Shown piece after piece: positions 1,193 through 24,000 of a stretch of DNA of 27,927 nucleotides. The DNA lies in NCBI GenBank assembly GCA_947372405.1, contig CANBTO010000008.1:1-27927 (forward strand). The letters run 5' to 3'. The notes below the pieces were generated by a model. That model worked only from the letters and a program-made list of their open reading frames with translations, had not been told where the DNA came from and searched no databases. A program made the position numbers and the translations under genes. How positions within the stretch are numbered: position 1 is the first letter of the stretch; each line of letters begins with the position of its first letter. The DNA is from Verrucomicrobiaceae bacterium. Lineage in GTDB: Bacteria; Verrucomicrobiota; Verrucomicrobiae; Verrucomicrobiales; Akkermansiaceae.

Positions 1193-2545
1193 ATGACGAC
1201 CACACGCAGACGATTCCTTACATCCTCCACCACCCTCGTCGCCGGAACCTGGATTGCTCCGAGTTTCTCGATCGGCCAGTCCGGGCCTTCGGCCAACAGG
1301 AAAATCAACCTCGCCTTCATCGGATGCGGTGGCCGGGGCGCGCTCAACCTGCAAGGGCTGGTCGGTGAGAATGTCGTCGCGTTGTGCGACGTGGATGACA
1401 CCAACGCCGCGGACTCGTTCAAGGCCCATCCGGATGCCAAACGTTTCCGCGATTACCGCCAAATGCTCGACAAGATGGGCAAGGAGATCGACGCGGTGGT
1501 CGTCAGCACGCCGGACCACAACCACTTTCCCGCGAGCATGGCGGCGATGGAACTGGGCAAGCACGTGTTCTGCGAGAAACCACTGACCCACACGGTGTGG
1601 GAGGCGCGCACGATGAAAAAGGCGGCTCAGCATTACAAGGTCGTGAGCATCATGGGCAACCAAGGCCATGCGACCGAAGGTATCCGCTACGTCAAGGAGT
1701 GGTATGACGCCGGGGTGCTCGGCAAGGTGGCCAAGGTGGACGCCTGGCTGAAGGGGGTGAACTTCAAGGGCCGTTTCTTCAAATTGCCCGATGCGTTTCC
1801 GCCGACCGCGATGCCGGTGCCGGATTCCCTCGATTGGGATTTGTGGCTTGGGCCGCGCATGGAGAAAATCCCCTACAATCCGGTTTACAACCCGCGGTCA
1901 TGGCGGGGATTCTATGGCTTCGGCTCCGGCCTGTTAGGCGACTGGGCCTGCCACACGATCGACGCCCCATACTGGTCGCTCGGGCTCGGCCTGCCAACCG
2001 TGGTGGAACGCGAAGCCCGCACCGACGGCACCGAGGATTTCGTCGGCACCGCCTGCACCATGCGCTTCGAGTTTCCGGCGCGTGGCGACAAGCCGCCCGT
2101 CATCCTCCACTGGCATGAAGGGAATCCGAAACCCGAGATCCAGGAGAAGTGGGGAGTCAAGGCAATCGGTGAAGCCGGGATGATCATGACGGGCGACAAG
2201 GAATGCCTGATGACCGGAGAACGCCCCGACAGCCCGCGCCTGACAAACGAGGAAAAGTGGATCGAGTTCCGCAAGAACCTGCCACTTAAAACTATTCCGC
2301 GCATCAAGGGTGGCCACTACCGCGAGTGGATCGACGCCATCCGCGGCGACGGCCCGGCACCGGGATCGAACTTCGATTACGCCGCCGAACTCACGGAAAC
2401 GATCCTGCTGGGAGTCATCGCGCAGCGCTTCGGCGGACGCATCGAATATGACGCCGAACAAATGAAGATCACCAACCGTCCCGAGCTCAACGCATGGCTC
2501 CGTCTTCCCGCCCGTGATGGATGGAAATTCGGCGAGTCGCTTTAA
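1193..2545 (+). CDS. Tat-exported Gfo/Idh/MocA family oxidoreductase
   Basis: A 450-residue NAD(P)-dependent oxidoreductase. The N-terminus has a twin-arginine signal (TTRRRFLTS, residues 3-11) followed by a hydrophobic stretch to about residue 28, so export in folded form is likely. The Rossmann nucleotide-binding loop is IGCGGRG at residues 43-49; the family EKP motif is at 128-130 (CEKPLTH), with STPDHNH before it and NQGH after. The C-terminal half has the family's beta-sheet domain (GSGLLGDWACHTIDAPYW). Secreted members of this family are abundant in Verrucomicrobiota and Planctomycetota and generally act on sugars or sugar derivatives; the substrate cannot be read from the sequence. It lies between two glycosidase-type genes on the same strand, which supports a role in carbohydrate catabolism. 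The start is the ATG that begins the Tat signal. Confidence 0.92.
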   Translation: MTTTRRRFLTSSTTLVAGTWIAPSFSIGQSGPSANRKINLAFIGCGGRGALNLQGLVGENVVALCDVDDTNAADSFKAHPDAKRFRDYRQMLDKMGKEIDAVVVSTPDHNHFPASMAAMELGKHVFCEKPLTHTVWEARTMKKAAQHYKVVSIMGNQGHATEGIRYVKEWYDAGVLGKVAKVDAWLKGVNFKGRFFKLPDAFPPTAMPVPDSLDWDLWLGPRMEKIPYNPVYNPRSWRGFYGFGSGLLGDWACHTIDAPYWSLGLGLPTVVEREARTDGTEDFVGTACTMRFEFPARGDKPPVILHWHEGNPKPEIQEKWGVKAIGEAGMIMTGDKECLMTGERPDSPRLTNEEKWIEFRKNLPLKTIPRIKGGHYREWIDAIRGDGPAPGSNFDYAAELTETILLGVIAQRFGGRIEYDAEQMKITNRPELNAWLRLPARDGWKFGESL

Positions 2546-2567
2546 GAGACATTCTTGAAAATGGCTG

Positions 2568-2589
2568 GGACCGTTCTCCGCAACGGTCC
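2568..2589 (+). terminator. Hairpin after the Gfo/Idh/MocA gene
   Basis: A perfect 8-bp inverted repeat, GGACCGTT and AACGGTCC, separated by the 6-base loop CTCCGC, begins 22 bases after the stop codon of the oxidoreductase gene. No T-run follows on the plus strand, so it is not a classical intrinsic terminator. It could be a terminator without a U-tail, an mRNA 3' stabiliser or a protein-binding palindrome. Confidence 0.4.
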
Positions 2590-2669
2590 GGCGAATGGTG
2601 AGAGAATGATTTAGCCCATGAAAAGCCAGGAAATCCGTCCATGGAAACACAATCACGATTCATTCACAC

Positions 2670-2690
2670 GGACCGCCGGGACGTCGGTCC
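2670..2690. promoter_or_regulatory. Second GGACCG/CGGTCC palindrome upstream of GH127
   Basis: A 6-bp inverted repeat (GGACCG, 9-base spacer, CGGTCC) lies 45 bases upstream of the GH127 start codon. Its arms repeat the outer arms of the hairpin at 2568-2589. A TACAAT at 2711-2716 is a possible -10 element but has no convincing -35 partner. The role as an operator is inference only. Confidence 0.25.
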
Positions 2691-2735
2691 CTGCCTTCAT
2701 CTGTTATTCATACAATCTCCAAACAATAATTCCTG

Positions 2736-4811
2736 ATGAAACCTCATCGACCGATGAAGCGCTTATCTAACACAACAACGGCATGGTGGACCGGCCGCGT
2801 GACCGTGGCAATGATGATGGTCGCGACTGCGCAAGCCGCGCCGGAACCAAAGCGTGGCTGGACGGAGGTGGACGAATCCAAGGTGGAAGTCCGCGACGGT
2901 TTCTGGGGCCCGCGGCTCAAGACCGCAAGTCAGGTCACTTTGCCGCACGCCCTTGATTGCCTGGAAAAAGACGGTCATGTCACCAATTTCGACAAAGCCG
3001 CCGGAAAATTCGACGGGCCTCTCAAAGGTCACCATGCGTTTGACTCCGATCTCCACAAGGCTCTCGAAGGCTCGATGTATTCCCTCGAGCACATCAATGA
3101 CCCGGCGCTGCGCCGCCGTGTGGACGACATCGTCTCACGCATCCTCGCCGCCCAGCAGAAGGATGGTTTCCTGATCTCATGGTTCATTGTCAACGGGCTC
3201 GACAAACGCTGGGACGAACTCCGTCTGGAGCACCAGATGTACAACGCCGGCCACTTCTTCGAGATGGCCGTCGCACAGCAGAGACTCACCGGCGAGCCCG
3301 TCGTGCTCGACGCGGCAAAGCGCTTCGCCGATCACATCGACAGCGTATTCGGTCCTGACAAAAGATACGACGTGGACGGCCACGAGGAAGTCGAACTCGC
3401 ACTGGTCAAGCTCTATCGCGCCACCGGTGAGCGCCGCTATCTGGAGCTGGCGAGGTTCTTCCTCGACGAACGAGGACACGCCCATGGCATGGCTCGCCTG
3501 CCCTTCGATCCCAAGACAGCGGTCATGCCGGTGAAGCCGGAGGGCAAGTTGACCGAGGAGCAGGAACGTGAATACCGGATGGCGAAACTCAAGGTGCGCA
3601 ACGGCCGGATGCAGGACCACAAACCGCTGGTCGAGCAGTTCGATGCCGTGGGCCATGCGGTGAGGGCCGGTTACGTTTACTCGGCGATGGCCGATGTCGT
3701 CCGCTTCATGGAGGCCCCCGGCTATGAGAACGCGCTGGACCACCTGTGGAGCGACGTGGTGGGCCGCAAGATCTACCTCACCGGCGCGATCGGTACCGCC
3801 CAGTATGGCGACGAAGGTTTCGGAGATCCCTATCTGCTGCCCAATGAGTCGGCCTACAGCGAATCCTGCGCGTCCATCGCCAACGTGCTCTGGCAACACC
3901 GGATGAACCTGCTCAAGGGCGAGGCCAAATATGCCGATGTCATGGAACTCTCGCTCTACAACGCGGTGCTCGCCGGAATCTCGATCCAGGGCGACGGTTT
4001 TTTCTATCAGAATCCGCTTGCCAGCAGGCAAGGCGCGAACCGTTCCTCATGGATCGGCCTCTCCTGCTGTCCCACCAATCTTGCGCGGATCATTCCACAA
4101 GTGGGGGGCTTGGCATACGCGCACGGGCCGGGACGACTCGCCGTCAACTTGTATGTCGCCGGTCAGGCGTCGGTTCCAATGGACCAGGAAGTGAAAATCA
4201 CACAGGAAACGGACTATCCTTGGGATGGCAGGATCAAGCTGACGGTGTCTCCAGTAAAGCCCTCGACATTTGATCTCTGCCTGCGGATTCCCGGTTGGGC
4301 GACGGGTCACCCGGTTCCAAGTGACCTCTATCAGTTCACGGACACGGAGGTGCCGAAAACCGGGCTGATGCTCAATGGAACGGAAATCGAGGCAAAGCCG
4401 GAAGCAGACGGTTATGTGCATCTTTCGCGCGAATGGCACACCGGAGATATGGTGGAACTGAACTTGCCAATGCCGGTTCGTTTGGTCCGCGCCCACGCAA
4501 AAGTGGCGGCTGATCAAGACAAGCTGGCCTTGATGCGCGGACCCATCATCTACTGCGTCGAGGCGGCCGATCATCCGCAAACGGACATGTCCCGTCTGAC
4601 GCTGCCCTTGAAAACAAGTTTCGAGACACATTATAGGTCTGATATGTTGGGAGGAGTGACGTTGATCGAGGGTCAGGGGAACATCGGTGGGGAATCATCC
4701 GTCAAGTTGACGGCGATTCCCTATTACGCCTGGGCAAACCGGGCGAAAGGAGCGATGAAGGTGTGGATCGACAAGGCACCGTTCCAAATGTCTCCAGCCG
4801 GGAAAAAATAG
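2736..4811 (+). CDS. Secreted glycoside hydrolase family 127 (beta-L-arabinofuranosidase-type)
   Basis: A 691-residue protein of the DUF1680/GH127 family, whose characterised member HypBA1 removes beta-L-arabinofuranose and uses a cysteine nucleophile bound to zinc. The catalytic set is visible: Glu360 in GDEGFGD (acid/base), Glu376 and Cys378 in SESCAS, and Cys444-Cys445 in SCCPTN. The 16-residue spacing from Glu360 to Glu376 equals that between Glu322 and Glu338 of HypBA1. The first ~34 residues form a signal peptide (basic start, VAMMMVATAQA, then Ala-Pro), so the enzyme acts in the periplasm or outside. A second ATG at residue 7 (2754) also keeps the signal peptide. The N-terminal part is the helical barrel and the last ~200 residues the beta domain. 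The exact sugar specificity is not determined by sequence alone. Confidence 0.93.
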   Translation: MKPHRPMKRLSNTTTAWWTGRVTVAMMMVATAQAAPEPKRGWTEVDESKVEVRDGFWGPRLKTASQVTLPHALDCLEKDGHVTNFDKAAGKFDGPLKGHHAFDSDLHKALEGSMYSLEHINDPALRRRVDDIVSRILAAQQKDGFLISWFIVNGLDKRWDELRLEHQMYNAGHFFEMAVAQQRLTGEPVVLDAAKRFADHIDSVFGPDKRYDVDGHEEVELALVKLYRATGERRYLELARFFLDERGHAHGMARLPFDPKTAVMPVKPEGKLTEEQEREYRMAKLKVRNGRMQDHKPLVEQFDAVGHAVRAGYVYSAMADVVRFMEAPGYENALDHLWSDVVGRKIYLTGAIGTAQYGDEGFGDPYLLPNESAYSESCASIANVLWQHRMNLLKGEAKYADVMELSLYNAVLAGISIQGDGFFYQNPLASRQGANRSSWIGLSCCPTNLARIIPQVGGLAYAHGPGRLAVNLYVAGQASVPMDQEVKITQETDYPWDGRIKLTVSPVKPSTFDLCLRIPGWATGHPVPSDLYQFTDTEVPKTGLMLNGTEIEAKPEADGYVHLSREWHTGDMVELNLPMPVRLVRAHAKVAADQDKLALMRGPIIYCVEAADHPQTDMSRLTLPLKTSFETHYRSDMLGGVTLIEGQGNIGGESSVKLTAIPYYAWANRAKGAMKVWIDKAPFQMSPAGKK

Positions 4812-4913
4812 TCAGTCAGGTTTTCGACGAAGGAAATCCGGCTGCCTTGCGCGATTTCATCATCGACACAAGCCCTGTGACACCATAGGCACCGTAATGA
4901 AACCATTCATATC

Positions 4914-5168
4914 ATGAAACTCACATCCACCACCTTGGGAATGATGCGCCATTCCGCCGGTGCCCTTCTCGCTGCCGCGGCAATTTCCGGAGAAACCCGG
5001 GCAGAGGACGCGCTTCCCTCCACAACTGCCGCTGAAGCGATACTATCGGCCCAAGCGGAAGCCCAGTCCGGCATGCGCACGGGCAATGCCGACGAGTCGA
5101 AGAAGAACGACGACGAGAAGAAGAAGGAAGAACAACGTGATCCCTGCCCCGCCTGCGGAAGAGGTTGA
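4914..5168 (+). CDS. Small secreted Cys-tail peptide A, candidate MNIO substrate
   Basis: An 84-residue peptide. Residues 1-30 are a signal peptide (MMRHSAGALLAAAAIS..., ending TRA). The middle is Ala/Thr/Glu-rich, then comes a charged linker (about residues 59-74, with DDEKKKEEQ) and the tail RDPCPACGRG that ends the protein. Its only cysteines are Cys78 and Cys81. A second peptide of identical length and the same design lies at 5642-5896, and a DUF692/MNIO oxidase at 5904-6773. By analogy with bufferins and other MNIO-modified peptides, which are short, often exported and carry the modified cysteines in defined motifs, I infer that the CPxC tail is modified before or during export and may bind a metal such as copper. 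That function is inference; the peptide family itself I do not recognise by name. No Shine-Dalgarno site is visible. Confidence 0.7.
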   Translation: MKLTSTTLGMMRHSAGALLAAAAISGETRAEDALPSTTAAEAILSAQAEAQSGMRTGNADESKKNDDEKKKEEQRDPCPACGRG

Positions 5169-5237
5169 TCCGTTCCACCTTACACGAAAGTCCGAAATCC
5201 CTTCACTCATCTCCTGAGTTTATCCATCAAGAACCCC

Positions 5238-5537
5238 ATGAACCTCACGGCATTATCCCGCTCGCTGTTCATAGGTGCTGGAATTTATGCCCTCGCCTGC
5301 GCTCCTGCCGCCCTCATTGCGGAACGTTTTGGTTGGCCGCAGAAATTGTTTCACCTGTCACAAATGATTGCGGTCATTCTCTGCCTGCCGACCAGCTTGA
5401 TCTACCTCTGGTGCACCCGGGGGACATCCTTCGGCACGCAGCGGTGGTGGGCGCTCATCGCGGCATTCCTTTGCGCCCTGTGGCTGGGGTTCGTCGCATA
5501 TGTGATCACCACGTTTGAAGGCGGCGGCATGGGTTGA
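5238..5537 (+). CDS. Small three-helix membrane protein
   Basis: A 99-residue protein with three hydrophobic segments, at about residues 9-28, 38-60 and 69-91, separated by short loops that hold FGWPQK and CTRGTSFGTQRW. I do not recognise a family. It sits between the two Cys-tail peptides on the same strand, 69 bases after the first and 104 before the second, so it is probably co-transcribed with them. MNIO clusters often contain a small membrane protein (for example DoxX type), but this one lacks the four-helix DoxX pattern. Possible jobs are metal sensing, transport of the modified peptide, or none connected with the peptides. Its reality as a gene is supported by the coherent membrane pattern and the codon use. 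Confidence 0.6.
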   Translation: MNLTALSRSLFIGAGIYALACAPAALIAERFGWPQKLFHLSQMIAVILCLPTSLIYLWCTRGTSFGTQRWWALIAAFLCALWLGFVAYVITTFEGGGMG

Positions 5538-5577
5538 CTCGTCCGGACCTCGTGAACCGCGACCGGGAGACCTAAGG

Positions 5578-5595
5578 GTCGATTTCCACATCGAC
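5578..5595 (+). other. Short hairpin upstream of peptide B
   Basis: A perfect 6-bp inverted repeat, GTCGAT and ATCGAC, with a 6-base loop lies in the 104-base gap between the membrane protein and peptide B. It has no T-run. It could set the relative expression of peptide B, but a stem this short can occur by chance. Confidence 0.2.
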
Positions 5596-5641
5596 AGACA
5601 TCCCGGAACTTCGTATTCCGTCCGATCAAACCACCATCACC

Positions 5642-5896
5642 ATGAAACCGACGTCCCATACACTCACATTGATGCGCCACTCTGCTGGCGCAGTGATCGC
5701 CGCTGCCGCGCTCTCAGGCGGCACACGTGCCGCTAATGCGTTCGAACCGATGCTCCCGAATGACGCGACCTGCACCGTCACGCCGCAGGCCGTCAACGAC
5801 AAGCGCACGAGTGACAACGTGGAACCGAAAAAGGAAGACGAGGAAAAGAAAAAGGAAGAACACCGTGATCCCTGCCCAGGCTGCGGAATGGGCTGA
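5642..5896 (+). CDS. Small secreted Cys-tail peptide B, candidate MNIO substrate
   Basis: An 84-residue paralogue of peptide A, alignable end to end without gaps. The shared blocks are LMRHSAGA in the signal peptide (residues 10-17; MMRHSAGA in A), TRA at the cleavage region (28-30), EKKKEE at 68-73 and the tail RDPCPGCGMG. Cys78 and Cys81 are at the same residue numbers as in A. An extra cysteine, Cys44, is found only here, just after the predicted cleavage site. The middle part is strongly diverged, whereas the linker and tail are held constant, as expected if the tail is the part read by a modifying enzyme. The stop codon is 7 bases before the start of the DUF692/MNIO gene, the closest spacing in the cluster, so B and the oxidase are very likely translated from one message. 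Confidence 0.72.
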   Translation: MKPTSHTLTLMRHSAGAVIAAAALSGGTRAANAFEPMLPNDATCTVTPQAVNDKRTSDNVEPKKEDEEKKKEEHRDPCPGCGMG

Positions 5897-5903
5897 TCGA
5901 CCG

Positions 5904-6773
5904 ATGGTTGGAACCCGGTCAGGATTGTCGCTGATGCTTGAGAACGAGTTTCTGCAAGCGTCACTGCCATTGTTCGAAAGCGGGGCCGTCGATGTCATTG
6001 AGTGGTCATTTGACGTCGGTTGGAGCCGCCCGTCGCTGCCAGAATGGGCGGAGGCCCTTTTGGATGAATACAGCCGGACGGGGAACCTGGTGGGACATGG
6101 CGTGACCTTCTCCGCCCTTTCAGGTGGATGGACGGAGCGTTCCGACTGGTGGCTCGACCAATTGCGGAAGGAAGTGAAGTTGCGGAACTATCTTCATCTT
6201 TCCGAACACTTCGGCTTCATGTCCGCGGGGGACTTCCATCAGGGCGCACCGCTGCCCGTTCCTCTGACGGCTCACACCCTGCATCTGGGCAAGGCGCGCA
6301 TGCGGACCCTCGCGGAAGTGGCCGGATGTCCGGTGGGCATGGAGAATCTGGCACTGGCGCTCGGCATGCGGGACGTGTCGGACCAGGGTGTTTTTCTCCG
6401 GGAGATGTTGGAAGCCGTCGATGGGTTTCTGGTTTTGGATCTCCACAACGTCTATTGCCAGATGAAGAACTTCGGTTGCAGCGCGGGGGAAATCCTTGCA
6501 AGTTATCCTTTGCAACGTGTGCGAGAGATGCACGTCAGCGGCGGATCGTGGATGGAAGCGTTAAGCGCTCGCGGCACCCCGATCCGCAGGGACACCCACG
6601 ATGACGACGTGCCGGAGGAGGTTTTCAAAATGCTGGAAGAGGCGCTGCCGCAATGTCCGCGGACCGAAGTGGTCGTCTTCGAACGCCTCGGCAACTCCCT
6701 GTCCGATCCAGCGGCGCGTGAAGGCATGAGAAGGGATTTTCTCAGAATGAAATCCATCGTTTCCGGAACATGA
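5904..6773 (+). CDS. DUF692 / MNIO family multinuclear non-heme iron oxidase
   Basis: A 289-residue member of the DUF692 (MNIO) family, TIM-barrel enzymes such as MbnB, TglH and the bufferin maturases that use two or three iron ions to modify cysteine or other residues in peptides. Family signatures in order: EWSFD (33-37), GHGV (64-67), HLSEHFGF (98-105), GMENLA (145-150), LDLHNVY (178-184), EMHVSGG (208-214), DTHDDDVP (230-237) and FERLG (259-263). Likely metal ligands among these are His65, Glu101/His102, Glu147, Asp179/His181, His210, Asp230/His232 and Glu260; this is by family analogy. The frame is open upstream to 5727, but that part overlaps peptide B and is a basic, low-complexity shadow; the ATG at 5904 is preferred. 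The gene overlaps the next by ATGA. The obvious substrates are the two upstream Cys-tail peptides. Confidence 0.9.
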   Translation: MVGTRSGLSLMLENEFLQASLPLFESGAVDVIEWSFDVGWSRPSLPEWAEALLDEYSRTGNLVGHGVTFSALSGGWTERSDWWLDQLRKEVKLRNYLHLSEHFGFMSAGDFHQGAPLPVPLTAHTLHLGKARMRTLAEVAGCPVGMENLALALGMRDVSDQGVFLREMLEAVDGFLVLDLHNVYCQMKNFGCSAGEILASYPLQRVREMHVSGGSWMEALSARGTPIRRDTHDDDVPEEVFKMLEEALPQCPRTEVVVFERLGNSLSDPAAREGMRRDFLRMKSIVSGT

Positions 6774-7012
6774 ATGAAAGCGACAAGGAACTGGCGGATT
6801 TCCAGGCGTGCCTGCTGGACGCCCTGCACCGGCATGAATCGGCGGCCGATATTCTAACAGACTTGACTGCAAGCGAGGTCACCCTGCCGTTCAGGGATTA
6901 CATATCCGGCTTCGAACCGGAAATGCTCGAAGTCGCCGCGCAGCTTGTGAAAAAATGGGGAGTGAAAAAGAAGCTTTCCGACAGCGTAGGCCTGCAGGAA
7001 ATGCCACATTGA
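6770..7012 (+). CDS. Small helical protein, putative MNIO partner
   Basis: An 80-residue, largely alpha-helical, charged protein whose ATG overlaps the oxidase stop codon (ATGA), which implies translational coupling. The N-terminal stretch LADFQACLLDALHRHES resembles the start of proteins of the DUF2063 type, which accompany MNIO enzymes and help bind the precursor peptide. The middle has FRDYISGFEPEMLEVAAQLVKKWG. It is far shorter than full DUF2063 proteins, so it may be a minimal recognition subunit. The role as partner is inferred from position and size. It has no signal peptide, so it should act in the cytoplasm with the oxidase. It is followed after 41 bases by the convergent sulfatase gene. 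Confidence 0.65.
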   Translation: MNESDKELADFQACLLDALHRHESAADILTDLTASEVTLPFRDYISGFEPEMLEVAAQLVKKWGVKKKLSDSVGLQEMPH

Positions 7013-10696: not shown

Positions 10697-12241
10697 ATGG
10701 AACGCGAGGAAATGCCGCTCGACCGCCGACTGCGCCAGGAAATCCTGTTCGCTCGCGAGCGGGTCTATCGATTCGGCGCGCCCACACCACTGGAACGCCT
10801 GAACATGCCGGAACCCGGCCCTGAAATCTGGGTGAAACGCGAGGATCTTTCCGCAGTGAAATCCTACAAGTGGCGGGGTGCCTGCAACCGCATGGCCATG
10901 CTCACTCCCGGCGAGGCACGGCGCGGAGTCGTCACCGCATCGGCGGGAAACCATGCCCAGGGCGTGGCTCTCGCCGCCCGCACGCTCGGCATGCGCGCGA
11001 GGATCCATATGCCGCGCTCGACGCCGCAGGTGAAACAATCCGCCGTCCTCCACCACGGCGGTGAATTCGTCGAGATCCATCTATCAGGCGACAGCTACGA
11101 CGAGGCCGTGAAGTCGGCGCGCAGAGACGAGGCGGAAACCGGAGCGGTTTACATCCACGCCTACGACGACCTCGAGGTGATGGCCGGGCAGGGCACGCTG
11201 GCGGACGAGATTGTTCTATCAGGTCACGGACCGTTCGACGCCGCCTTCCTCCAGATCGGCGGCGGCGGCATGGCGGCCGGAGTCTCCACCTGGCTGAAGA
11301 CCTACTGGCCGGATATCGAGATCACCGGCGTGGAGGGCGTAGGACAGGCGTCAATGAAAGCCGCGCTCGCTGCGGGCGAGCCGGTGGCGCTGGACCAGGT
11401 GGACCTGTTCTGCGACGGCACGGCTGTTAGAATGGCGGGCGATCTTCCGTTCCAGATCTGCCGCCACACGCTCGGACGCATCGAGACGGTGACCAACACG
11501 GAGGTGAGCCACGCGATGCGGACGCTGTGGGACGGGCTGCGCTGCATATCCGAACCCTCAGGCGCGATGGGTCTCGCGGCGGTCTTGAAGAACCACCACA
11601 AACTCATTGGGAAAAAAGTGCTGGTGATCCTTTGCGGAGCGAACATCGACTTCCTTCAACTCGGACTCATCGCCCAGTCCGTCGGGCTTGCGGACCAGGC
11701 AAGCCGCACCCTGCGCGTGCGCATCCCAGAGCGGCCGGGTGCCATGCTGGAGCTTCTCGACTCGTGCTTCGCGGGCATCAATATCGCGGATTTCCAGTAT
11801 GGCATGACCGGAGAAACCGATGCGTGGCCGGTCTTTACCATAAGCGCCGCGGACCCGGCGGTGCTGGACGCGGTGCAGGACAAACTCGATGCGGGCCGCT
11901 TCGCATGGCATGATCTAACAGGAGCAGTGGACGTGGCGTTCCGGGCGATTCCGCTGCGCGAGGATCTGTTGAAGAACCCGGCCTTCCTGCGCTTGGATTT
12001 CTACGAACGGCCCGGAGCGCTTCACGACTTCCTTTCCCAGCGGATCCGCGGCAACGCGAACCTCTGTTATTTCAACTACCGCCAGTCCGGCGAACGCATC
12101 GGCCGCGCGCTGATCGGCCTGGATTTTCCCTCACCCTATGAGCGCGACGCGTTGATGATGACCATCCCCGGCCATGGCGAGGGATACCGCCGTTGCGAGG
12201 TGGTGGATGAGGCCACTTGCCGGCGGTTGTCCGGTCACTGA
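10697..12241 (+). CDS. ilvA: Threonine ammonia-lyase, biosynthetic long form
   Basis: A 514-residue PLP enzyme that deaminates threonine to 2-oxobutanoate, the first step of isoleucine synthesis. The PLP lysine is Lys58 in VKSYKWRGA, the cofactor-contact loop is SAGNHAQG (82-89) and the phosphate-binding glycine loop is GGGG at 188-191. The C-terminal third (from about residue 335) has two ACT-like regulatory subdomains, the first starting TLRVRIPERPGAML and the second FLRLDFYERPGALHDF, as in the isoleucine-inhibited enzyme of Escherichia coli, which has the same length. This points to feedback control by isoleucine and valine. No other branched-chain gene is in the window. The start could also be the Met at residue 6. 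The stop codon overlaps the end of the convergent VKOR-DsbA gene by 7 bases. Confidence 0.93.
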   Translation: MEREEMPLDRRLRQEILFARERVYRFGAPTPLERLNMPEPGPEIWVKREDLSAVKSYKWRGACNRMAMLTPGEARRGVVTASAGNHAQGVALAARTLGMRARIHMPRSTPQVKQSAVLHHGGEFVEIHLSGDSYDEAVKSARRDEAETGAVYIHAYDDLEVMAGQGTLADEIVLSGHGPFDAAFLQIGGGGMAAGVSTWLKTYWPDIEITGVEGVGQASMKAALAAGEPVALDQVDLFCDGTAVRMAGDLPFQICRHTLGRIETVTNTEVSHAMRTLWDGLRCISEPSGAMGLAAVLKNHHKLIGKKVLVILCGANIDFLQLGLIAQSVGLADQASRTLRVRIPERPGAMLELLDSCFAGINIADFQYGMTGETDAWPVFTISAADPAVLDAVQDKLDAGRFAWHDLTGAVDVAFRAIPLREDLLKNPAFLRLDFYERPGALHDFLSQRIRGNANLCYFNYRQSGERIGRALIGLDFPSPYERDALMMTIPGHGEGYRRCEVVDEATCRRLSGH

Positions 12242-13380
12242 AGACCGAGTTCCCCCGCGATCACACGGATGAAGTCTTCCTCGCCGGAAGGCAGGCCGTG
12301 CAGGATGCGTTTGTCCCGGACCAGCAGTTTAGGGAGCTTGTCCGTGGTCTTTGAGAAGACGTGCCAGTCCTCGACGTCCGCGTGAATCATTTCGTCGATC
12401 CACGAATCTGTTAGAGTCGCAGTCAAGTCTTGCGGCGGAATGATTTGCAATGCCAGCCTGCGCGCGGAATCCACGGACGAATCCGCGATGAGCGCATGGT
12501 GGAAAGCACGAAACGCGCCGGGATCGCGCTTCCACACTGCGAGCGCGATGCGGGCGATCTCGCAGCTGCCGGGGTGCTCGTTGCGTGCGGAAACGTGGCG
12601 GTTGCAACCGGTTTCAAGCGGCATCGGCAAGAGCAGCACCACGATATCCGCCGGATATTTCGCAACCAGGGCTTCCAGATAACCGGACATGATCCGGCAG
12701 GCGGGGCATTGATAGTCGAAATACTCGACCAGCACATGCTTCGCGTCCTCCGGGCCGCAGTGCGGCAGAGAGCGGACGTTGTAGGATTTCAGTCCACCAT
12801 CGAAGGTCACCACCCTGCCCTCGCCGCGGGCATGCACGGGCGCGTCGGGCGTGACCGTGACCACATCCTCCATGCGATGGCCCGCAGGCAGCGGACCATA
12901 GATCTGCACGAGACCAATGCCGAAAAAGGCAGCAATGCTCCAGACCAACACCTGTCTGAACGCGACACCCGATCCCAGGCGAATCATCGACAACACCAGC
13001 ACTGCGATCCCCGCAGCATGAGCCGCCAGGCACCATGGACAGAACTTTTCCAGCAGGACGGCCTGCGTGAATACGAACCAGCAGACGGCACCTGAGACCG
13101 CGCCCAACAGCGGTTTGTGGAGCCGCTCCCAACGTGCTGTTAGGGAGACCATCAGTCCGCCATACACCAGCATTCCAAAGACCGTCACCGGCAGGCCGAA
13201 AAGCACCGACCAGCGTGAGGCGAGAACCTCCTCGCATGATCCGCCGCCACATCCGGCGATTCCAGCGGCAGTGTCCGAGTATCTATGAAACAGCAGCAGA
13301 AGATTGATCGAAAATCCAGCCAACGAAGATGCCAGGATCGCGAATTCCAGCCACAGGGAGTTTCCGCCTTCACGTTTCAT
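12235..13380 (-). CDS. VKOR-DsbA fusion, disulfide-bond formation protein
   Basis: A 381-residue fusion of a vitamin K epoxide reductase (VKOR) membrane domain with a periplasmic thioredoxin-fold domain. The VKOR part (residues 10-160) has several membrane helices, the loop cysteines Cys44 and Cys49 in GCGGGSCEE, the conserved Ser/Trp region SRWSVLFGLPV and the quinone-site pair Cys114/Cys117 in FCPWC. The thioredoxin part (about 185-381) has the active site QCPACR, Cys225/Cys228. Such fusions pass electrons from folding proteins through the thioredoxin domain to quinone. Two more cysteines (CNRH and GSCE) may form a structural bond. It starts 25 bases after the calcium-loop secreted protein on the same strand, at the end of the probable giant-protein operon, so it may fold that operon's secreted products. 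It converges on ilvA with a 7-base overlap. Confidence 0.92.
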   Translation of the reverse strand: MKREGGNSLWLEFAILASSLAGFSINLLLLFHRYSDTAAGIAGCGGGSCEEVLASRWSVLFGLPVTVFGMLVYGGLMVSLTARWERLHKPLLGAVSGAVCWFVFTQAVLLEKFCPWCLAAHAAGIAVLVLSMIRLGSGVAFRQVLVWSIAAFFGIGLVQIYGPLPAGHRMEDVVTVTPDAPVHARGEGRVVTFDGGLKSYNVRSLPHCGPEDAKHVLVEYFDYQCPACRIMSGYLEALVAKYPADIVVLLLPMPLETGCNRHVSARNEHPGSCEIARIALAVWKRDPGAFRAFHHALIADSSVDSARRLALQIIPPQDLTATLTDSWIDEMIHADVEDWHVFSKTTDKLPKLLVRDKRILHGLPSGEEDFIRVIAGELGLQ

Positions 13381-15097: not shown

Positions 15098-18000
15098 TCA
15101 AGGCGACCAAGGGAGAGGCGTGGTGTAGCCGGGAAGCCCGGTTTTGGATCTCAGGAAGGCGCTGCGGTTGCCCAGAAGCAGCGTTTCCGCATCCCGCGCG
15201 AGGATCGAGGTGTCCCCCACCTTCACCCAGCGGAGGATCGACGACTGGGTCGGCGCTCCGTTGAGCAGGTAGTAGCTGTCGTAGCCGGTGGCTCCGTTTG
15301 TCGAGTCCGCCCTCCAGATGCTGAACAGGTCCGCTGTCTTGAAGTCACGACTGCCGAAGAAACCGGTGGCCAGACTCATCGCGCGGCTGCCGTTTCCGGT
15401 GGCGCTTTGATCGAGCGGATAGCCGCCTCCGACGAGGTTGGCTCCTGCCGCCAGCGGACGGATGAAGGCGTTGGCGCGCACTTCGCCGTAGGCGAGGATG
15501 GAGGTGACGGCGTTGCGGTTGTTGAAGAACATGCCCTGGCCGGGCTGGATGATAACGGCTCCCTGGTCGGCCATGCCGGCATCGGCGGCGTCCACCCAGC
15601 GGGCGGTGGCCGGGTTGCCGTCGTTTTCGTCGTAGAGCCAGTAGATGGTCCAGGCTCCGCCTGCGAAGACCTGCACTTCGTCGGCGGTCGACTGGTCGCC
15701 GGAGGCACCGAAGCCGCTTGGCGGGAAGACTTCGTTGAGTGTCCAGTGCCTGCGAACAACCACCTGGTCCCCGGCGAGGTTGGCGGGCGGCGCGCCGGTG
15801 AGGGTGTTGAAGGGCGGTGCCGCGTCGTTCAGGCTGGTGTCGTTGGCGAGCGTGATCGTGTTGCCGGTGGCGGAGGCGATGTCGAAGCGGTGGCCCACGT
15901 TGTCGCCGGAGGTCACTTCGAGGTAGTAGGTGCCGCCTGTCAGAAGGGTGGAGAGGTCGGCGCCGCCGCCGCTGATGGTGAAGGCGAGGTCCTGGCCGCT
16001 GACGGTGCCGACAGTGCCGGTGAAGACGGCTTCGCGCAGGAACGGGTTGTTGTAGGTGGCGCAGTTGGCGACCAGCGGGGTTTCCTTCCAGCCTTCGACT
16101 TCGGTGTAGGAGGTGTGGTCGGTGCCGGTGGGCGGGTCTTCGTCCAGATCGGCCTTGATGCGCACGACGCCGCTGCCTCCGGTGAGTCCTGTCAGGGTTT
16201 CCAGGTCATGGATGGTGACGGTTTCGGTGCAGTCACCGTTGTCCACGGTGCTGATCATCAACGGGGTGATGACGAGGGTCTGCCAGACGGTCGGGTTGGT
16301 GGCGGTGGCGGCGTATTGCAGGCTGCAGGTGACGTTTTGCAGCGCGCCTTTGGGACGGATGAAGGCACCTTCGAGCGTGCCGGGGGCGAGCGCGGAGGGA
16401 CGGATGATCCACGCGGTGTTGCCGAGCCAGGGGCTGCCGGTGCCGTTGTCATAGGGCATGGCGAAGGCGAACTCGGCGAAGTTGTCGTAGGCGTCCGCAT
16501 CGGGGTTGCCGGCGGCCGTTTCACCGGGATGCTGGAACTTCCACTCGGCCCAGGTGTCCGGGCAGGTGTCTAACGATTCGATGAAGTTGTTGGCCGCGTT
16601 GGTCTGGCCGGGCAGCACGGTGATCGGCGAGACGTCGCCAATGACGTCGAGGTCGCCGCCGTCCTTGTCGCCGAAGCTGTTGTATCCGAAGGGCTGGGTC
16701 TGGGCGACTTTGTAGGAACCGGGCGTCACGTTGCTGAAGGTGTAGGAGCCATCCGAGGCGGTGGTGGTTGTTAGAGGCTGCACGCCGGGGGTGTTGGGAT
16801 CGCCGTCCACCGGATTACCGGAGGAGTCCAACAAGGTGAGCGTCACCCCGGCGAGCGGACTGGAGCCGACGAACACGAAACCGGTGATGGAGCCGAGCTG
16901 GATGTCGACGAAGTCACGGCCGGTGACGGCTTGTCCGGGCGCCACGGTGATGGGGGTCGTGTTGCCGATGAGGTCGGGGTTGCCACCATCGACGTCCGAG
17001 ACGCTGCCGTAGCCGGAGGGCTGGGTTTCGGCAACCTGATAGCTGCCGGGCAGGACGTTGTTGAAGGTGTAGGTGCCGTCCGGGGCGGTGGTGGTGGTGA
17101 CGGGCTGCACGCCGGGAGTGTTCGGGTCGCCGTCCACGGGATTGCCGGAGGAGTCCAACAAGTTGAGCGTCACTCCGCCAAGCGGGGCGTCGCCGCTGCC
17201 GTTGTTGTCGCTGTCCTTATGGACGCTGCCGGCGATGGAGCCGTATTGGATCTCGACGAAGTCGCGGCCGCCGACGGTCAGGCCGGGGGTGACGACGATA
17301 GGTGTCTGGTCACCGATGAGGTTGTTGTTGGCTCCGTCCACGTCGCTCACGCTGGCGTAGCCTGAGGGCTGGGTTTCGGAGACGCGGTAGCTGCCGGGGG
17401 CTACGCCGGTGAAGCTGTATGCGCCCGAGCCGTTGGTGGTGGTGGTGCGGGGCTGGACGCCGGGGGTGTTCGGATCGCCGTCCACCGGATTGCCGGAGGA
17501 GTCTAACAAGGTGAGAAGAACTCCGGAGAGCGGAGCGTCGCCGCTGCCATTGTTGTCGGAGTCGGCATAGACGTGGCCGCTGATGACGCCAAGTTGCACT
17601 TCGACGAAGGTGTTGCCGCTGTTGGAAGCGCCGGCGCTGACCGCGATGAGGGTGACGTCGCCGATAACGTCGAGGTTGCCGCCGTCCTTGTCGGACACGC
17701 TGTTGTAGTTGGACGGCTGGGTTTCCGCGACTCGGTAGTTGCCGGGCGGCAGTCCGCCGAAACTGTAGCTGCCGTCCGGGGCGGTCGTCGTGGTGATGGG
17801 TGAGCCGCCTCCGTCAAGAACCGGAGACCCGCCGCTGTTGAGCAGGCGGACGAGCACTCCCGTGAGCGGTGCGTCGCCGCTGCCGTTGCCATCGGTGTCG
17901 GCGAGCACGGAGCCAGAGATCGATCCGGGTTGCTCCTCGACAAAGTTGTTGCCGCTGTTGGTCGCACCGGCGGTGACGACAACCGGCGTGATGTCGCCGA

Positions 18001-21000
18001 TAATGTCGAGGTTGCCGCCGTCCTTGTCGGACACGCTGTTGTAGCCGGAGGGTTGGGTTTCGACGATCTTGTAGCTGCCGGGAGCAACGTTGCCGAAGCT
18101 GTAGGCTCCGGAACCGTTGGTCGTGGTGCTCGCGATGAGCGCGTTGGTCGTCGCGTCGCGGAGTTCAAGGTTCACTCCGACCAGCGCGGAGTCACCGGTA
18201 TTGTTGTTGTCGGTGTCGGCCAGCACCGAGCCGGTGATGGTGCCGAGTTGCTGTATTCCGAAGTTCGCGTTGCCAACGCTGGCGGTGGTCACTGTAACCG
18301 CTAGAATGCCGTTTGGAGTTCCATCGCTGCCAGCACCCGCGCCAAAATGCTCACCTGTGTTTCTATATCCTGAAGGAAGTGCAGCCGCTGGTGCCGCCGC
18401 GCCCACTGAACCCTGGGTGGTGGACAGGACAATCGTATAACTTGCATTCGGAGCAACTGTGCCGAAGGAATAGGTTCCGTCGGCCGCCACCGCCACGGCC
18501 TGCACCACTTGATTTCCGCCGTCGATCAAGTTCACGTAGAGAGTGCCACCCACATTGGTGCCAGTGCCATCCACGGTATCCAGAGGAGTTCCGAGAAGGC
18601 CGTTAACGTCATCATAAACATTGCCCGAAATGTTCACAGCTGTAAACGGCATGCTCACTGAGACCGGTCCCGACTCCTTGCCAGCTGCATCCACCGCCGC
18701 GTAGGTGAAGCTCACCGTGACCGATCCGTCATTCGGATCGACCTTGAGAAGTGAGGGATCGTAACCTGAAATTTTCTGGCCTGAGGTGACCGCGGTCCCG
18801 TTGTAGTAAAGCGTTCCGTTAGACGGCAGCGTTTTGATGACAAAAACGGTGACCGATGCATCTTCGGGATCAGTGCCATTAAGCGCGGGCACCACGACCT
18901 TCGCCGTGCCGCCGGGGTTGGCCTGAGTTGCTGCCGTGACCACGTTGGCCGATGGCGTCCGTTCGATGCCGAAGTTCGCATTGGCTAAGTTGTTGGTCGC
19001 CACGACCACCGCAAGGACACCGTCGGGAGTTCCGTCGCTGCCCGCCCCCGAACCAATATTCTCGCCGGTGCTTACAAAGCCGGAGGGTGTGGCAGCGGGA
19101 GAGGCAAGGGCACCCAGGATGCCAAGTTCCGTACCGAGCACGACGGAGTATGACGTGTTGGGCGCCACCTTCGTAAACGTATAGGTTCCGTCGGCAGATA
19201 CCAGAACCGACTGGACCACCTTGTTAGTGCCATCGACCAGGCTGGCATAAACGGTGCCTCCGGCATTGGTGCCGGCACCGTCAACCGTGTTTGCTGGAGA
19301 TCCCAGAAGTCCGTTGGCGTCGTTGAACACCGTGCCGGTGATGACGATGTCCGTAAACGGCATGGTCACGGTGGCGGCGGCGGATTCCACTCCCGCAGCA
19401 TCCTGCACGGAGTATGTGAAGGACACCGTGATGGCACCGTCATTGGGATCCACGGCGAGCAGAAGCGGGTTGTATGAAGTAATGACCTGACCAGCCGTGA
19501 CTGCGACACCATTATAATAGAGCGTACCATTGGAAGGTAGCGTCTTGATCACCACGGCCCCGGTCGTGGTGTCCTCGGGGTCTGTTCCGCTCAAGGCAGG
19601 CACCTGGACCTTGGTGTTGCTTCCCGGATTGAACTGGGCGGGTGCGGTGACGGTGGCGGCTGTGGGTTTCCGATCGACGCCAAAGTTCACATTCGCCACG
19701 CTGGTGGTCGTAACGCTGACCGGCAGGATGCCGTTTACCGTGCCGTCACTACCAGCTCCGCTACCGAAAAACTCCCCGGTGTTCACCCAACCGGAAGGAA
19801 GCACTGCGGCTGGAGCAGCCGAGCCCACAGTCACTGACGTAGTGCTCAGGACGACGGTGTAGCTCGTGTTCGCCGTGACGGCGTTCGAGAAAATATAACT
19901 TCCGTCGGCAGCTACCGTGGCGACCTGGAGCACGTTGTTGCTGCCATTGACGAGATAGGCGTAAAGCGTGGAACCCGTATTCGTGCCAGAGCCGTTTACG
20001 ATTCCGTCAGTGAGGCCGTTAGCGTCATCAAACACTTTTCCACTTACGCTGATACCGGTGAACGGCATGGTGACGGTGGCGGACGCCGCAGACTCCTTGC
20101 CCGCAGCATCCACAACTGAGTATGTGAAGGTTACCGTAGGCGTGCCGGTGGCCGGTTGCACCGTGAGAAGGGACGGATTATAACTGGAAATCGTCTGGTT
20201 GGCGGTTACGGCCACGCCGTTATAGAACAGGGTGCCGGTGCCGGATGGCAGAGTCTTGATAATGATCGTACCGATCGTGGCGTCTTCCGGATCAGTGCCG
20301 CCCAGAGAGGGGATCGTGACCTTCGCCGTTCCAGATACGAGATTCGGATTAGGTTGGGCCGGGACGGATAGCGCGGTGGCACTCGGCAGCCGGTCGATGC
20401 CGAAATTCGCGTTGTTCACATTGGTGTTGCTGATGGATACGGCGAGCGTGCCGTTCACGGTACCGTCACTTCCCGCACCAGAACCAAGAAACTCTCCGGT
20501 GTTCACCCAGCCGGATGGCAGGGATGCGGCAGGCTTCGCAGCCCCCACGGTTCCCGCAATGGTGCTGAGGACTACCGAGTAGTTGCTTGTGGATCCACTC
20601 GATGCGACAGAGCCAAAGCTATAACTTCCATCAGATGCGACCAACACCACCTCGGAGACATTGTTCGAGCTGTTGATAAGGTTGGCATACAGCAGCCCGC
20701 CTGCGCTGGTACCCGTTCCGTCAACTGTGTTGACGGGTGTGCCGAGCAAGCCGTTTGCGTCGTCATAGACATTGCCCGCAATGCTTACCTTTCCTGCTCC
20801 AGGTGTGAAAGAGAGCGTGACAAGAGCGGTGGTGGAAGATTCCACGTTGGCCGCATCAACCACCGAGTAGTTGAAGATCACCGTGGTGGCACCATTCCCG
20901 ACTGGATCGACGGTGAGCAGCGAGGAGTTATAATTCGTGATCGTCTGACCGGCTGCCACAGCGACGCCGTTATAATAGAGCGTGGCGTTCGCGGGCAGGG

Positions 21001-24000
21001 TCTTGATGATCATGGTGGTCACCGGACTGCCTTCCGGATCCGTGCCGCTGAGCGTGGGAACAACGACTTGTGTCGTTCCGCCGGGATTAACCGGAGAAGC
21101 GGTCACCGTGTTGGGCACAGGCCGTTGGTCGATGCCGAAGTTCGCGTTGGTCACGTCCGAGGCGGCAACTGTCACGGCGAGGCTACCATTTACGGTGCCA
21201 TCGTCGCCAGCTCCCGAACCGAGGAATTCACCGGTATTCACCCAGCTCAAGGGCAATGCAACCGCCGACGCCGCGGCCCCCACCGTCCCGGATGTGGTGC
21301 TGATCACAACTGTGTAACCGTTCGGAGTAACATTCGGGAACGAATAAGTTCCGCCCGAACCAACGGCCACGGATTTCACGACAAGGTTCGAGCTGTTGAT
21401 CAGATTGGCATAGAGCGTGCCCCCGGCATTTGTGCCAGTGCCGTTGACAATTCCGTCGCTTAAGCCATTGGCGTCATCATAGACGTTGCCACTCAGCGAG
21501 GGATACTGGTAACCGAAGTTGGTCGACGTGTTTGAGAGAGATGCCGCGGTCAGCGTAACGCTGGTTTTCCCGTCCTTCACTCCGTCGGGATCCGCCACCA
21601 ACTTGGTGAGCGCCGTCGGAAGTGTGGTTGTATCCACCATGACCTTGTAGGTGTCCAACGCCAGATTGTAGAGCTGATAGGTGCCGGTGGAGTCGGTTAC
21701 CGAGAAAGGTTCACCGGAGTCCCGCACGCCGTTGTTGTTCAAGTCCGCGAAAACCGTCACGTCGGCGATACCTTCGCCCGAGTCCGGCAGCCCGTTGTTG
21801 TTCTTGTCCTGGAAGATCGTGCTGCCGATGGAACCCGCCAGCGTGGTGATGGAGGCGGTGCTGCTGACCGGAGGGAGCGGGTTGCCGCCCGCATCCACGG
21901 CATAGGATATGTCCGCGGTATTGTCCGCAGGTGCCGCCGCGCCGTTGACCAGCATCGTGACGTCGATTGTCTTGGACGCGTTCACCGCGAGCGGGCCGAG
22001 ATTGTTCCACAGCAATGAGCCGCTGCCGCTGGAATCCGGCGGAATGGTCGCTGAAACAAACTGGAACGAGCGGCCGCTGAAGTTATCCGAAAGCGGCAGT
22101 GTGGTGATCGAGGTGGTGCCGGTGTTCTGGACCACGATGCGGAACGTGACATTGTCCCCCTTGTATGAGGGGCCCGTAACCGGATTGAGCAAGGTCTTGG
22201 TGACGGTGACTTTCGGCTTGTCGATCGTCACGTTGACAGTGGATGGACCGGAAGAGGCCGTGCCACCAGCCGATGCCGAGTTGGCAGCGGTACCCACGGC
22301 GAGAGCGGTGAAATTCACCTGGATGTTGACGATTTGTCCGGCTGCCAGCGGACCGACGTTTGTCCAGTTCAAGGTTCCCGTGCCGGTCGAACTGGGTGCA
22401 ATGCTCGCTCCCACATATTGGAGCCTCGCATTGTCAAAACTATCAGACACCGAGACCGTGGGCAGGGAATTGCTCCCGGTATTGGCAATCTGGATGTTGT
22501 AACTGATGGCATCGTTGAGTAGTGCCTTGCCTGACGAAGGACTGATGAGGCTTTTGTAGATGCTGACACTGGTCGTGGACGCCGTGACAATGACAGCGTT
22601 GGCGGATGATGTGTCCGAGGAATCGACGGCATCCACATAAGTAACGAGCAGGCTGGCTCCCGGAACAATGTTGAGCGCGTTGTTTCCCTGTGTCACCGAT
22701 CCGGTGTTCACGGTGATGGAACTGCTGCGGAAGATACCGGTGTTAGGTCCGGTCTCGGTCAACGTGACCGTCTCTCTGTCCCCAGTGCTGGTCGTGATGA
22801 CGGCGATGATCGTCTGAACGGTGAGCGGGTCGGTATTCTTGTCCTGATCGATCACCTGAACATACGCTGGGCCGCTGGTGGTGTAGCTTGTGACCGGATT
22901 GCCTGATGAATCGGTAAAGGTTGTGGTACTGGGTGTGCCAAGGTCCTGCTGCGTTACTTGAAGAGGCGTGGTAGAGGTGGCGTTAATGCCCTCGGTGCCC
23001 TCGTTCGCCTTTACGGTGATCGAATATCCTCCGGTGGCGGGTCCGGATGTCCACGCATATTCGTAGGTCTTTGAGCTAGCTGTGGTCGCGACAGTCGACG
23101 TGAGGTTTGTCGACGAAGTGCCTCCGGATGGGTTGGTGAGGGTGACGTCGAGGCTTGTGATGTCGTAAGCACCAAACGGATCACTCGTGGTCACGCGGAC
23201 GTAGGCTTTCTGCCCGTTGTTCACGCCGCTGATCAAGGTGCCGCCTGGATAGGGCGCGTCGTAGATTCCGAGGGAATCCACCGTGATGACCGTGTTGGCA
23301 GGCAGACTGATGGCGGACGGCTTTGTGGAGCTGTCGTAATCGACGGCGAAACTGACGCCACTCTGCTTGTTGATGATGTCCAGATAGATGAATTCTCCCA
23401 CTGCCACGGTGGTATCCGCGACGGGTGAACCGCTCCACACCAAGTTGCCGGTCGCACCGGTGCCCGCCGTGAAAGCAGGACTGGTGAAAGTAGCAAACGT
23501 GGAGGCCCCCGCATAGGTTGTTCCCTTCTTGAGCACTGCGGTCACCGCGGGATTGGCGGGCATCGAACCGGTGATTCCGGAAACATAGGTTGTCAGGCCG
23601 ATGGTACCGATCGCTGGAGTGGTGAACGGCTTCGCCATCGCCGGGGCTTGCGTGAACGTGGTGCTGCCGCCTGAGGAACCCGGGGCCGGTTTGATAGCAA
23701 CCACACCGATGGTCCAGTTGCGATTGGCAGAGGCAGTGTAGGTGGGTGAAACGGAAGCCGCACCTGGAATGGTGCTGGTTGCGGTATCAATGTATTTGTT
23801 GTTGCTGGTGTTGGAAAGCTCAGCCTGGCCCGAGGCAGTGGTGATGGTGCGGTTGGTATTCCCCTGTTCGATACCACCTACCGAGTAAACCAGCTCACCT
23901 GCGGCCGATGCATAAGCCGAGGTCAAGCTTACGGTGGCACCTGCAACAGAAGAATTGGCGGATGCGAATGTTCCAAGCGGTGTCGTCTGGTTGACTCCGG

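Follow-up and report, generated by a model that had tools for sequence, protein, structure and literature searches.

A probable ChrH-like RiPP cluster with a split enzyme and two precursors in Verrucomicrobiota

ChrH-family MNIO enzymes act on substrates that end in CPxCGxG tails and in several cases carry signal peptides (PMC10214503; PMC12636315, a preprint). ChrA is modified at CPACGMG (PMC10214503), and HymA, which carries CPGCGLG, is modified as well (PMC12636315). MelH requires MelHc and yields a −4 Da product, and the seven-residue tail alone is sufficient for DybH when placed on GFP (PMC12636315). Methylation, giving a +10 Da product, is described for ChrH and in part for ArlH, with ArlAH yielding a mixture (PMC12636315). 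The main texts of PMC12636315 and PMC12452194 make no mention of Verrucomicrobiota.

Gene content of the locus and identity of the oxidase

We analysed a 27,927-nucleotide stretch of DNA (the window) from a Verrucomicrobiaceae bacterium, in which an earlier note had proposed an MNIO-RiPP system of five plus-strand genes with two twin precursors, a membrane protein and a minimal partner. An ORF check found all five reading frames again, and we assign them and the two cores as follows.

4914..5168, plus strand: precursor peptide A, 84 aa, with a putative Sec signal peptide and an Arg-type core; weak NF050125 match (E 0.02)
5145..5165, plus strand: core of A, CPACGRG, at the C-terminus, where ChrA has its modified CPACGMG (PMC10214503)
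5238..5537, plus strand: membrane protein of 99 aa with three helices, probably a bystander; no match at 115 other loci
5642..5896, plus strand: precursor peptide B, 84 aa, with a putative Sec signal peptide and a Met-type core; NF050125 match (E 2.5e-6)
5873..5893, plus strand: core of B, CPGCGMG, at the C-terminus, read from the sequence
5904..6773, plus strand: ChrH-like MNIO (DUF692), a TIM barrel without a fused C-terminal domain; PF05114 and NF050165
6770..7012, plus strand: 80-aa partner, by homology the C-terminal helical domain of ChrH encoded on its own (MelHc type); hhalign, invariant residues and structure model

The precursors are twins in length and layout, but their tails, RDPCPACGRG in A and RDPCPGCGMG in B, differ by Arg versus Met at core position 6 and Ala versus Gly at position 3. 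Only 7 nt separate the stop of B from the MNIO ATG and the MNIO and partner genes overlap by ATGA, with gaps of 69 nt after A and 104 nt after the membrane protein gene.

The MNIO, 289 aa counted from its ATG, matches the TIM-barrel family PF05114 (Pfam, E 7.1e-31). Scored against NCBIfam models, it reaches 335 bits with the ChrH-like model NF050165, compared with 88 for BufB, 77 for HvfB, 31 for ApyH and 18.5 for MbnB, and is closer to ChrH than to these four other MNIO families. The ChrH-like score covers profile positions 5–283 of 363 and lies below the equivalog cut-off of 600 bits; judged by these models, the enzyme is ChrH-like without being ChrH in the strict sense, and since the MNIO, A and B all fall under curated cut-offs, the scores argue against filing the locus as ChrH/ChrA proper. 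Eleven candidate active-site residues (H65, H102, E147, N148, D179, H181, N182, H210, D230, H232 and E260) are invariant in 22 aligned sequences including that of the window, and the later MNIO motifs can be aligned with TglH. Residues of this kind presumably bind iron. The ChrH model score and the tails found upstream of MNIO genes (below) bear out an MNIO-RiPP system.

The earlier note went on to suggest a new class, possibly for metal handling outside the cytoplasm, and counted the membrane protein among the system's components. In favour of such a reading, bufferins, another MNIO product, chelate copper (PMC12452194), and in Chryseobacterium the ChrH gene has as its neighbour that of ChrI, a DUF1772 membrane protein (PMC10214503). 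We consider it improbable: the ChrH model scores the oxidase far above the other MNIO models, ChrH functions without ChrI in a later report (PMC12636315), and the C-terminal CPxCGxG core, signal peptides and small separate helical partner that had seemed new are already described in the ChrH subfamily (PMC10214503; PMC12636315). Because the locus combines a ChrH-like MNIO with tails and putative signal peptides of the kind known for ChrH-family substrates, we read it as chryseobasin-type rather than a new class.

The membrane protein has three hydrophobic segments (Kyte-Doolittle), no Pfam match above cut-off and no match at E <1 in 115 other loci. Of 189 Verrucomicrobiales genomes, 3 encode relatives with 48–55% identity, and none of these has the MNIO (G018 is listed without it, and G127 and G158 fall, by handle number, among the unlisted genomes without a match), and the 2.1–3.3 kb around these relatives hold no ORF of at least 60 codons with a C-terminal CxxCG. 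As it is unmatched at these other loci and its relatives sit in genomes without this MNIO, the protein is probably a bystander that does not travel with the system in our sample. Its EGGGMG ending was considered as a degenerate core and rejected, since the ending is not kept in relatives. Neither neighbour families nor neighbour clustering lent support to metal handling, and of the 107 Pfam families matched by 69 neighbour proteins at 17 split loci, the 25 listed include no metal-specific one.

The 80-residue partner and the proposed reaction

A genome-contig scan matched 367 relatives, of which 80 were kept; with L089, L113, L114 and the window these make 84 loci, 64 with a fused MNIO and 20 with an unfused one. 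A profile of 34 split partner copies (20 from the loci and 14 from profile set A2, the window's copy being in both) matched the 64 fused ChrH C-termini at 97.0% over 65 columns (hhalign, E 8.2e-11), compared with 1.1% for a reversed control and 0.1–0.2% for three column shuffles. Residues Q12 and W63 are invariant across 38 split and fused copies. A structure model predicts four helices (pLDDT 86.3), and fold comparison gave no informative match in either direction. The partner adjoins the MNIO in all 20 unfused loci of the sample. Of the 17 loci measured, 15 have the partner start between −21 and 0 nt relative to the end of the MNIO gene, and the other two at +11 and +59; for 5 of 13 partner matches besides that of the window, the longest contig is the same size as that of an MNIO match (9924, 1931, 6814, 4187 and 30478), which suggests linkage in those five.

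Homology to the ChrH C-terminus and gene order support the 80-residue protein as a genuine partner, and by profile comparison it is the ChrH C-terminal helical domain encoded separately, so that the window possesses the domain that the ChrH-like subfamily carries in fused or separate form. The same split between MNIO and C-terminal domain has been published for Cyanobacteria (MelH/MelHc; PMC12636315). Short PME-type 2 partners also follow MNIO genes (PMC12452194), and the protein could on that ground be a shrunken DUF2063/RRE-type (PME) leader-binding partner, as in bufferin systems, instead of a ChrH C-terminal domain. This is very unlikely given the strong profile match to the fused ChrH C-terminus, and DUF2063, the Pfam domain by which we judged bufferin/PME membership, found no match at E up to 10 in 14 partner members.

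We hold it highly probable that the locus is a split ChrH-like (chryseobasin-type) RiPP cluster, in which the MNIO and its partner would oxidise the tails of A and B before export by Sec. What the sequences themselves show is the identity of the genes, the homology of the split domain, the gene order and the conserved tails; the heterodimer, the chemistry, the absence of methylation and the export are predicted from characterised relatives. The TIM barrel and the separate helical domain would form a cytoplasmic heterodimer that recognises the last seven residues of each precursor, and a four-electron oxidation of CPxCGxG would turn the tail into a rare sulfur-bridged ring, giving a macrocycle and a hydantoin, −4 Da, unmethylated and with one thiol left. 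Sec export of modified A and B and a signal peptidase I cut would then leave, outside the cytoplasm, a Lys/Glu-rich linear peptide with a modified tip. The −4 Da macrocycle-hydantoin is expected from the precedents of MelH/MelHc and DybH (PMC12636315); because ChrH and in part ArlH methylate, a +10 Da product is conceivable here too. Arg at core position 6 occurs in none of the ChrH-type substrates described in the accessible text of these reports, and A may for that reason be modified poorly or not at all.

Precursor tails and their pairing

Both precursors begin with a basic N-terminus and a hydrophobic stretch ending in TRA, a pattern from which we infer Sec export; the stretch is only moderately hydrophobic, with no 19-residue segment reaching a mean of 1.6. 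B has a single internal cysteine, residue 44, which by inspection lies outside any lipobox, and A has no cysteine before its core, leaving neither with the lipobox cysteine of DAG-RiPPs of the DybA type. Their CPACGRG and CPGCGMG endings place A and B among CPxCGxG precursors, although NF050125, the model for ChrA-related precursors, excludes them in its strict sense, since A (15.6 bits) and B (28.1 bits) score below its cut-off of 40, with matches confined to the C-terminal part. As a genome probe NF050125 reached 13 of 336 genomes, none above cut-off, mostly through N-terminal alignments, as well as 1 of 14 control genomes, and was unusable on both counts. An N-terminal box, MK[ILVP][STP]xx(x)[LVMI], a pattern chosen after looking at the sequences and noted in the small precursors of the loci and of the window (starting at 4914 and 5642), is present in 53 of 64 non-Chryseobacterium small precursors and in none of the 116 remaining genes at these loci that start with MK and encode a hydrophobic N-terminus; it sits oddly with a freely variable N-terminus.

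In 80 of the 84 loci the MNIO is preceded by a CxxCGxG or CxxxCGxG tail, a count that, with loci fetched by their MNIO, speaks for MNIO-to-precursor linkage only. The nearest tail is within about 610 nt of the MNIO in 79 loci and 2.9 kb away in L071. Among the four misses, L113 has no sequence before the MNIO, in L025 the tail is confined to a 26-residue ORF, a CPPCGRG protein of the L017 genome is encoded on a different contig, and in L047 three tandem proteins have a tail widened to C-x16-CGMG. As A and B are 54% identical and tails recur upstream of the MNIO at this rate, the five-gene arrangement is not a chance one.

The reverse direction of the linkage search proposed in the earlier note was covered in part. 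A degenerate CPxCGxG-stop pattern, which requires the Pro, leaving cores without it outside its reach, and also admits TGG as stop, matched in 136 of 288 genomes, mostly by chance given its looseness. Of 30 loci covered, 17 have a true stop, and by eye only L138 among these is precursor-like, in a genome (G242) that carries the MNIO. Regular occurrence of the peptides without any DUF692 gene, which the note had named as evidence against the system, was not borne out among the 17 true-stop loci, a partial test.

Directly upstream of the split ChrH-like MNIO of L047 lie three tandem MelA-like proteins of about 330 aa (2290–3267, 3303–4307 and 4311–5294), which end in C-x16-CGMG, with WW soon after the first cysteine and 16 residues between the cysteines versus 2; the widened tail is a possible natural giant ring and hints that the rings such enzymes can take may go well beyond the size described in the accessible text of the reports. 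L032 (1778–5949, Melainabacteria) encodes four tandem large precursors with cores CYGCGRG, CPACGMG, CPGMCGLG and CNGRCGMG, two of them with three residues between the cysteines, and another contig of its genome, L155, encodes a protein ending in CHGCGMG. Three or four precursors in a row, with cores CGKCGKG, CEACGRG, CPGCGMG and CPPCGMG, occur in L006, L016, L027 and L012 (Bacteroidia), L012 being without the CPGCGMG member. L002 (2864–3208), L005 (3267–3677) and L011 (5641–5967), from Akkermansiaceae/Rubritalea, have a DxNxDGxLxxxEF stretch, which we take to be EF-hand-like, before a CPGCGLG tail. Planctomycetota precursors of about 265–290 aa (L021 5178–5981, L022 2664–3491, L031 192–986 and L152, encoded apart from the L017 MNIO on another contig) share a similar HPQ...W stretch before the CPxCGxG tail, the HPQ being conserved only in part.

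In a count of 77 of 83 tree loci (L017, L025 and L047 were dropped for want of a tail by regular expression, and L007, L013 and L076 for having one tail and <700 nt upstream), an Arg or Lys tail occurs in 11 of 13 multi-precursor loci (the exceptions being L024 and L070) and in 1 of 64 single-precursor loci (L089), the other 63 having none. All 11 combine an Arg tail with a Met tail, some with Lys or Leu tails besides, and sets of Arg with Met or Leu tails recur in Verrucomicrobiota, Bacteroidota and Melainabacteria. Speaking for the pairing are also 13 precursor matches, the window's two included, all of which end in CxxCG[MLR]G (6 R, 5 M and 2 L), and two further sets on contigs of equal size (P0138 M with P0143 R, 3779; P0146 R with P0147 L, 108838). 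Counting against it, Arg tails appear to be unaccompanied in Planctomycetota: in L089, in L007, on a contig that begins 390 nt upstream, and in the genome of L017, in which a pattern covering part of the codons of Met, Leu and Arg tails picked up CPPCGRG alone. The loci are related, and a phylogeny-corrected test, with only three independent pairs on supported branches (in most draws 2 agree, 0 oppose and 1 is uninformative), is too small to decide, since reaching 0.05 takes 6 or more informative independent pairs. Outside the core, A and B of the window score best against each other, as do the members of the L006 and L060 pairs compared. This does not hold for the L019 pair, and within the Prosthecobacter group the closest two are both R precursors, P0143 and P0146; this mixture indicates pairing that was re-made or homogenised in some lineages.

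One tentative reading, which we regard as possible but doubtful, is that multi-precursor ChrH-type clusters make a matched set of an Arg ring and a Met or Leu ring, a two-peptide system whose exported products act together; joint action would account for pairing kept or re-made in distant phyla. An unlikely alternative takes A as a degenerate or competing duplicate that is no substrate, with B alone modified: the first Pro is missing from several Arg tails (CEGCGRG, CEACGRG, CYGCGRG, CIACGRG and CLACGRG), and the MNIO starts 739 nt from the end of the A tail versus 11 nt for B. Yet all 6 Arg tails among the 13 precursor matches retain both cysteines, the last Gly and their place at the extreme C-terminus, Arg tails are found across four phyla (Verrucomicrobiota, Bacteroidota, Cyanobacteriota/Melainabacteria and Planctomycetota), and settling on Arg is not expected of a decaying copy. 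The word "arginine" is absent from the main text of PMC12636315, supplements aside, and the Arg/Met pairing is possibly new; if real, it offers a testable handle on function.

Distribution and comparison with known systems

The fused loci belong to Bacteroidota, with L071 (labelled Cyanobacteriota), and the unfused ones to Verrucomicrobiota, Planctomycetota, Omnitrophota, Cyanobacteriota and L047 (labelled Actinobacteria), making the split form that of 20 of the 21 sampled loci outside Bacteroidota. A quick tree of 83 loci needs two fused/split changes and groups the window with L001, from a Prosthecobacter metagenome-assembled genome (MAG), with support 98; holding ChrH-like loci only, it is no test between MNIO families. 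The ChrH-like MNIO was found in at least 4 of 336 genomes of the order of L001 (E 1e-30) and, at E 1e-60, in at least 2 of 392 genomes of a Planctomycetota sample, at least 2 of 292 of the phylum of the Melainabacteria genome and 10 of 87 of a Bacteroidia order, the first three counts being possibly low because scoring there was limited to the 6 to 8 best first-look candidates of each genome. The system is patchy across the sampled taxa, and close relatives come mostly from metagenomes. These loci bring Verrucomicrobiota into the ChrH-type RiPP family, with the split enzyme as the usual form outside Bacteroidota in our sample.

Neighbour clustering of 83 loci (L036, L055 and L079 without neighbours, the MNIO gene being uncalled there) recovered mainly Chryseobacterium synteny. 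Outside that genus the recurrent MNIO neighbour is the partner (8 loci, with proteins <70 aa left out), and the clustering also returned an eight-locus group of proteins of about 690 aa, some 1.2 kb off on either side, and local synteny among L006, L012, L016 and L027. Glycoside-dehydrogenase-like, aceric-acid-hydrolase-like and sulfatase-like genes, all below NCBIfam cut-offs, flank the cluster in the window and suggest a sugar-degradation neighbourhood, a weak parallel to the SusCD genes that the authors of PMC12636315 remarked near Bacteroidota clusters. Besides the window, L011 and L015 have a sulfatase-like gene close to the cluster. The phyla concerned are rich in sulfatases, so that three sulfatases among the 69 neighbour proteins scanned (of 89 listed, 17 split loci) are unremarkable. 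Elsewhere in the window, the minus strand encodes an apparently giant secreted repeat protein (15098–26740, a 3880-aa ORF with repeated segments) and a VKOR-like protein (12235–13380; 26 bits, cut-off 120) continuing into a CPAC-containing, thioredoxin-like part, possibly for periplasmic disulfide formation.

Among described systems, MelA/MelH/MelHc of Candidatus Melainabacteria shares the split cluster and a secreted precursor ending in a CPxCGxG-type motif; it differs in MelA1, a 34-kDa protein compared with precursors of 84 aa, in the CPACGRG and CPGCGMG tails of the window and probably in phylum (PMC12636315). ChrA/ChrH/ChrI of Chryseobacterium likewise has a ChrH-type MNIO and a short signal-peptide precursor ending in CPACGMG, but there the C-terminal domain is part of ChrH itself, unlike the split MNIO of the window, and ChrH methylates (+10 Da), the precursor is of the Met-tail type and ChrI (DUF1772) is encoded next door (PMC10214503). 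DybA/DybH of Dyadobacter has a ChrH-like MNIO, the same kind of tail and a minimal cluster, whereas DybA is lipidated at an internal lipobox cysteine, absent from A and B, and DybH is fused (PMC12636315). Also close to the window is L001, the Prosthecobacter debontii MAG locus, with a split MNIO 67% identical, a partner, and one Met-tail and one Arg-tail precursor. Its order is reversed, the Met tail being far from the MNIO and the Arg tail near, and no membrane protein is seen on its contig, which begins inside the far precursor.
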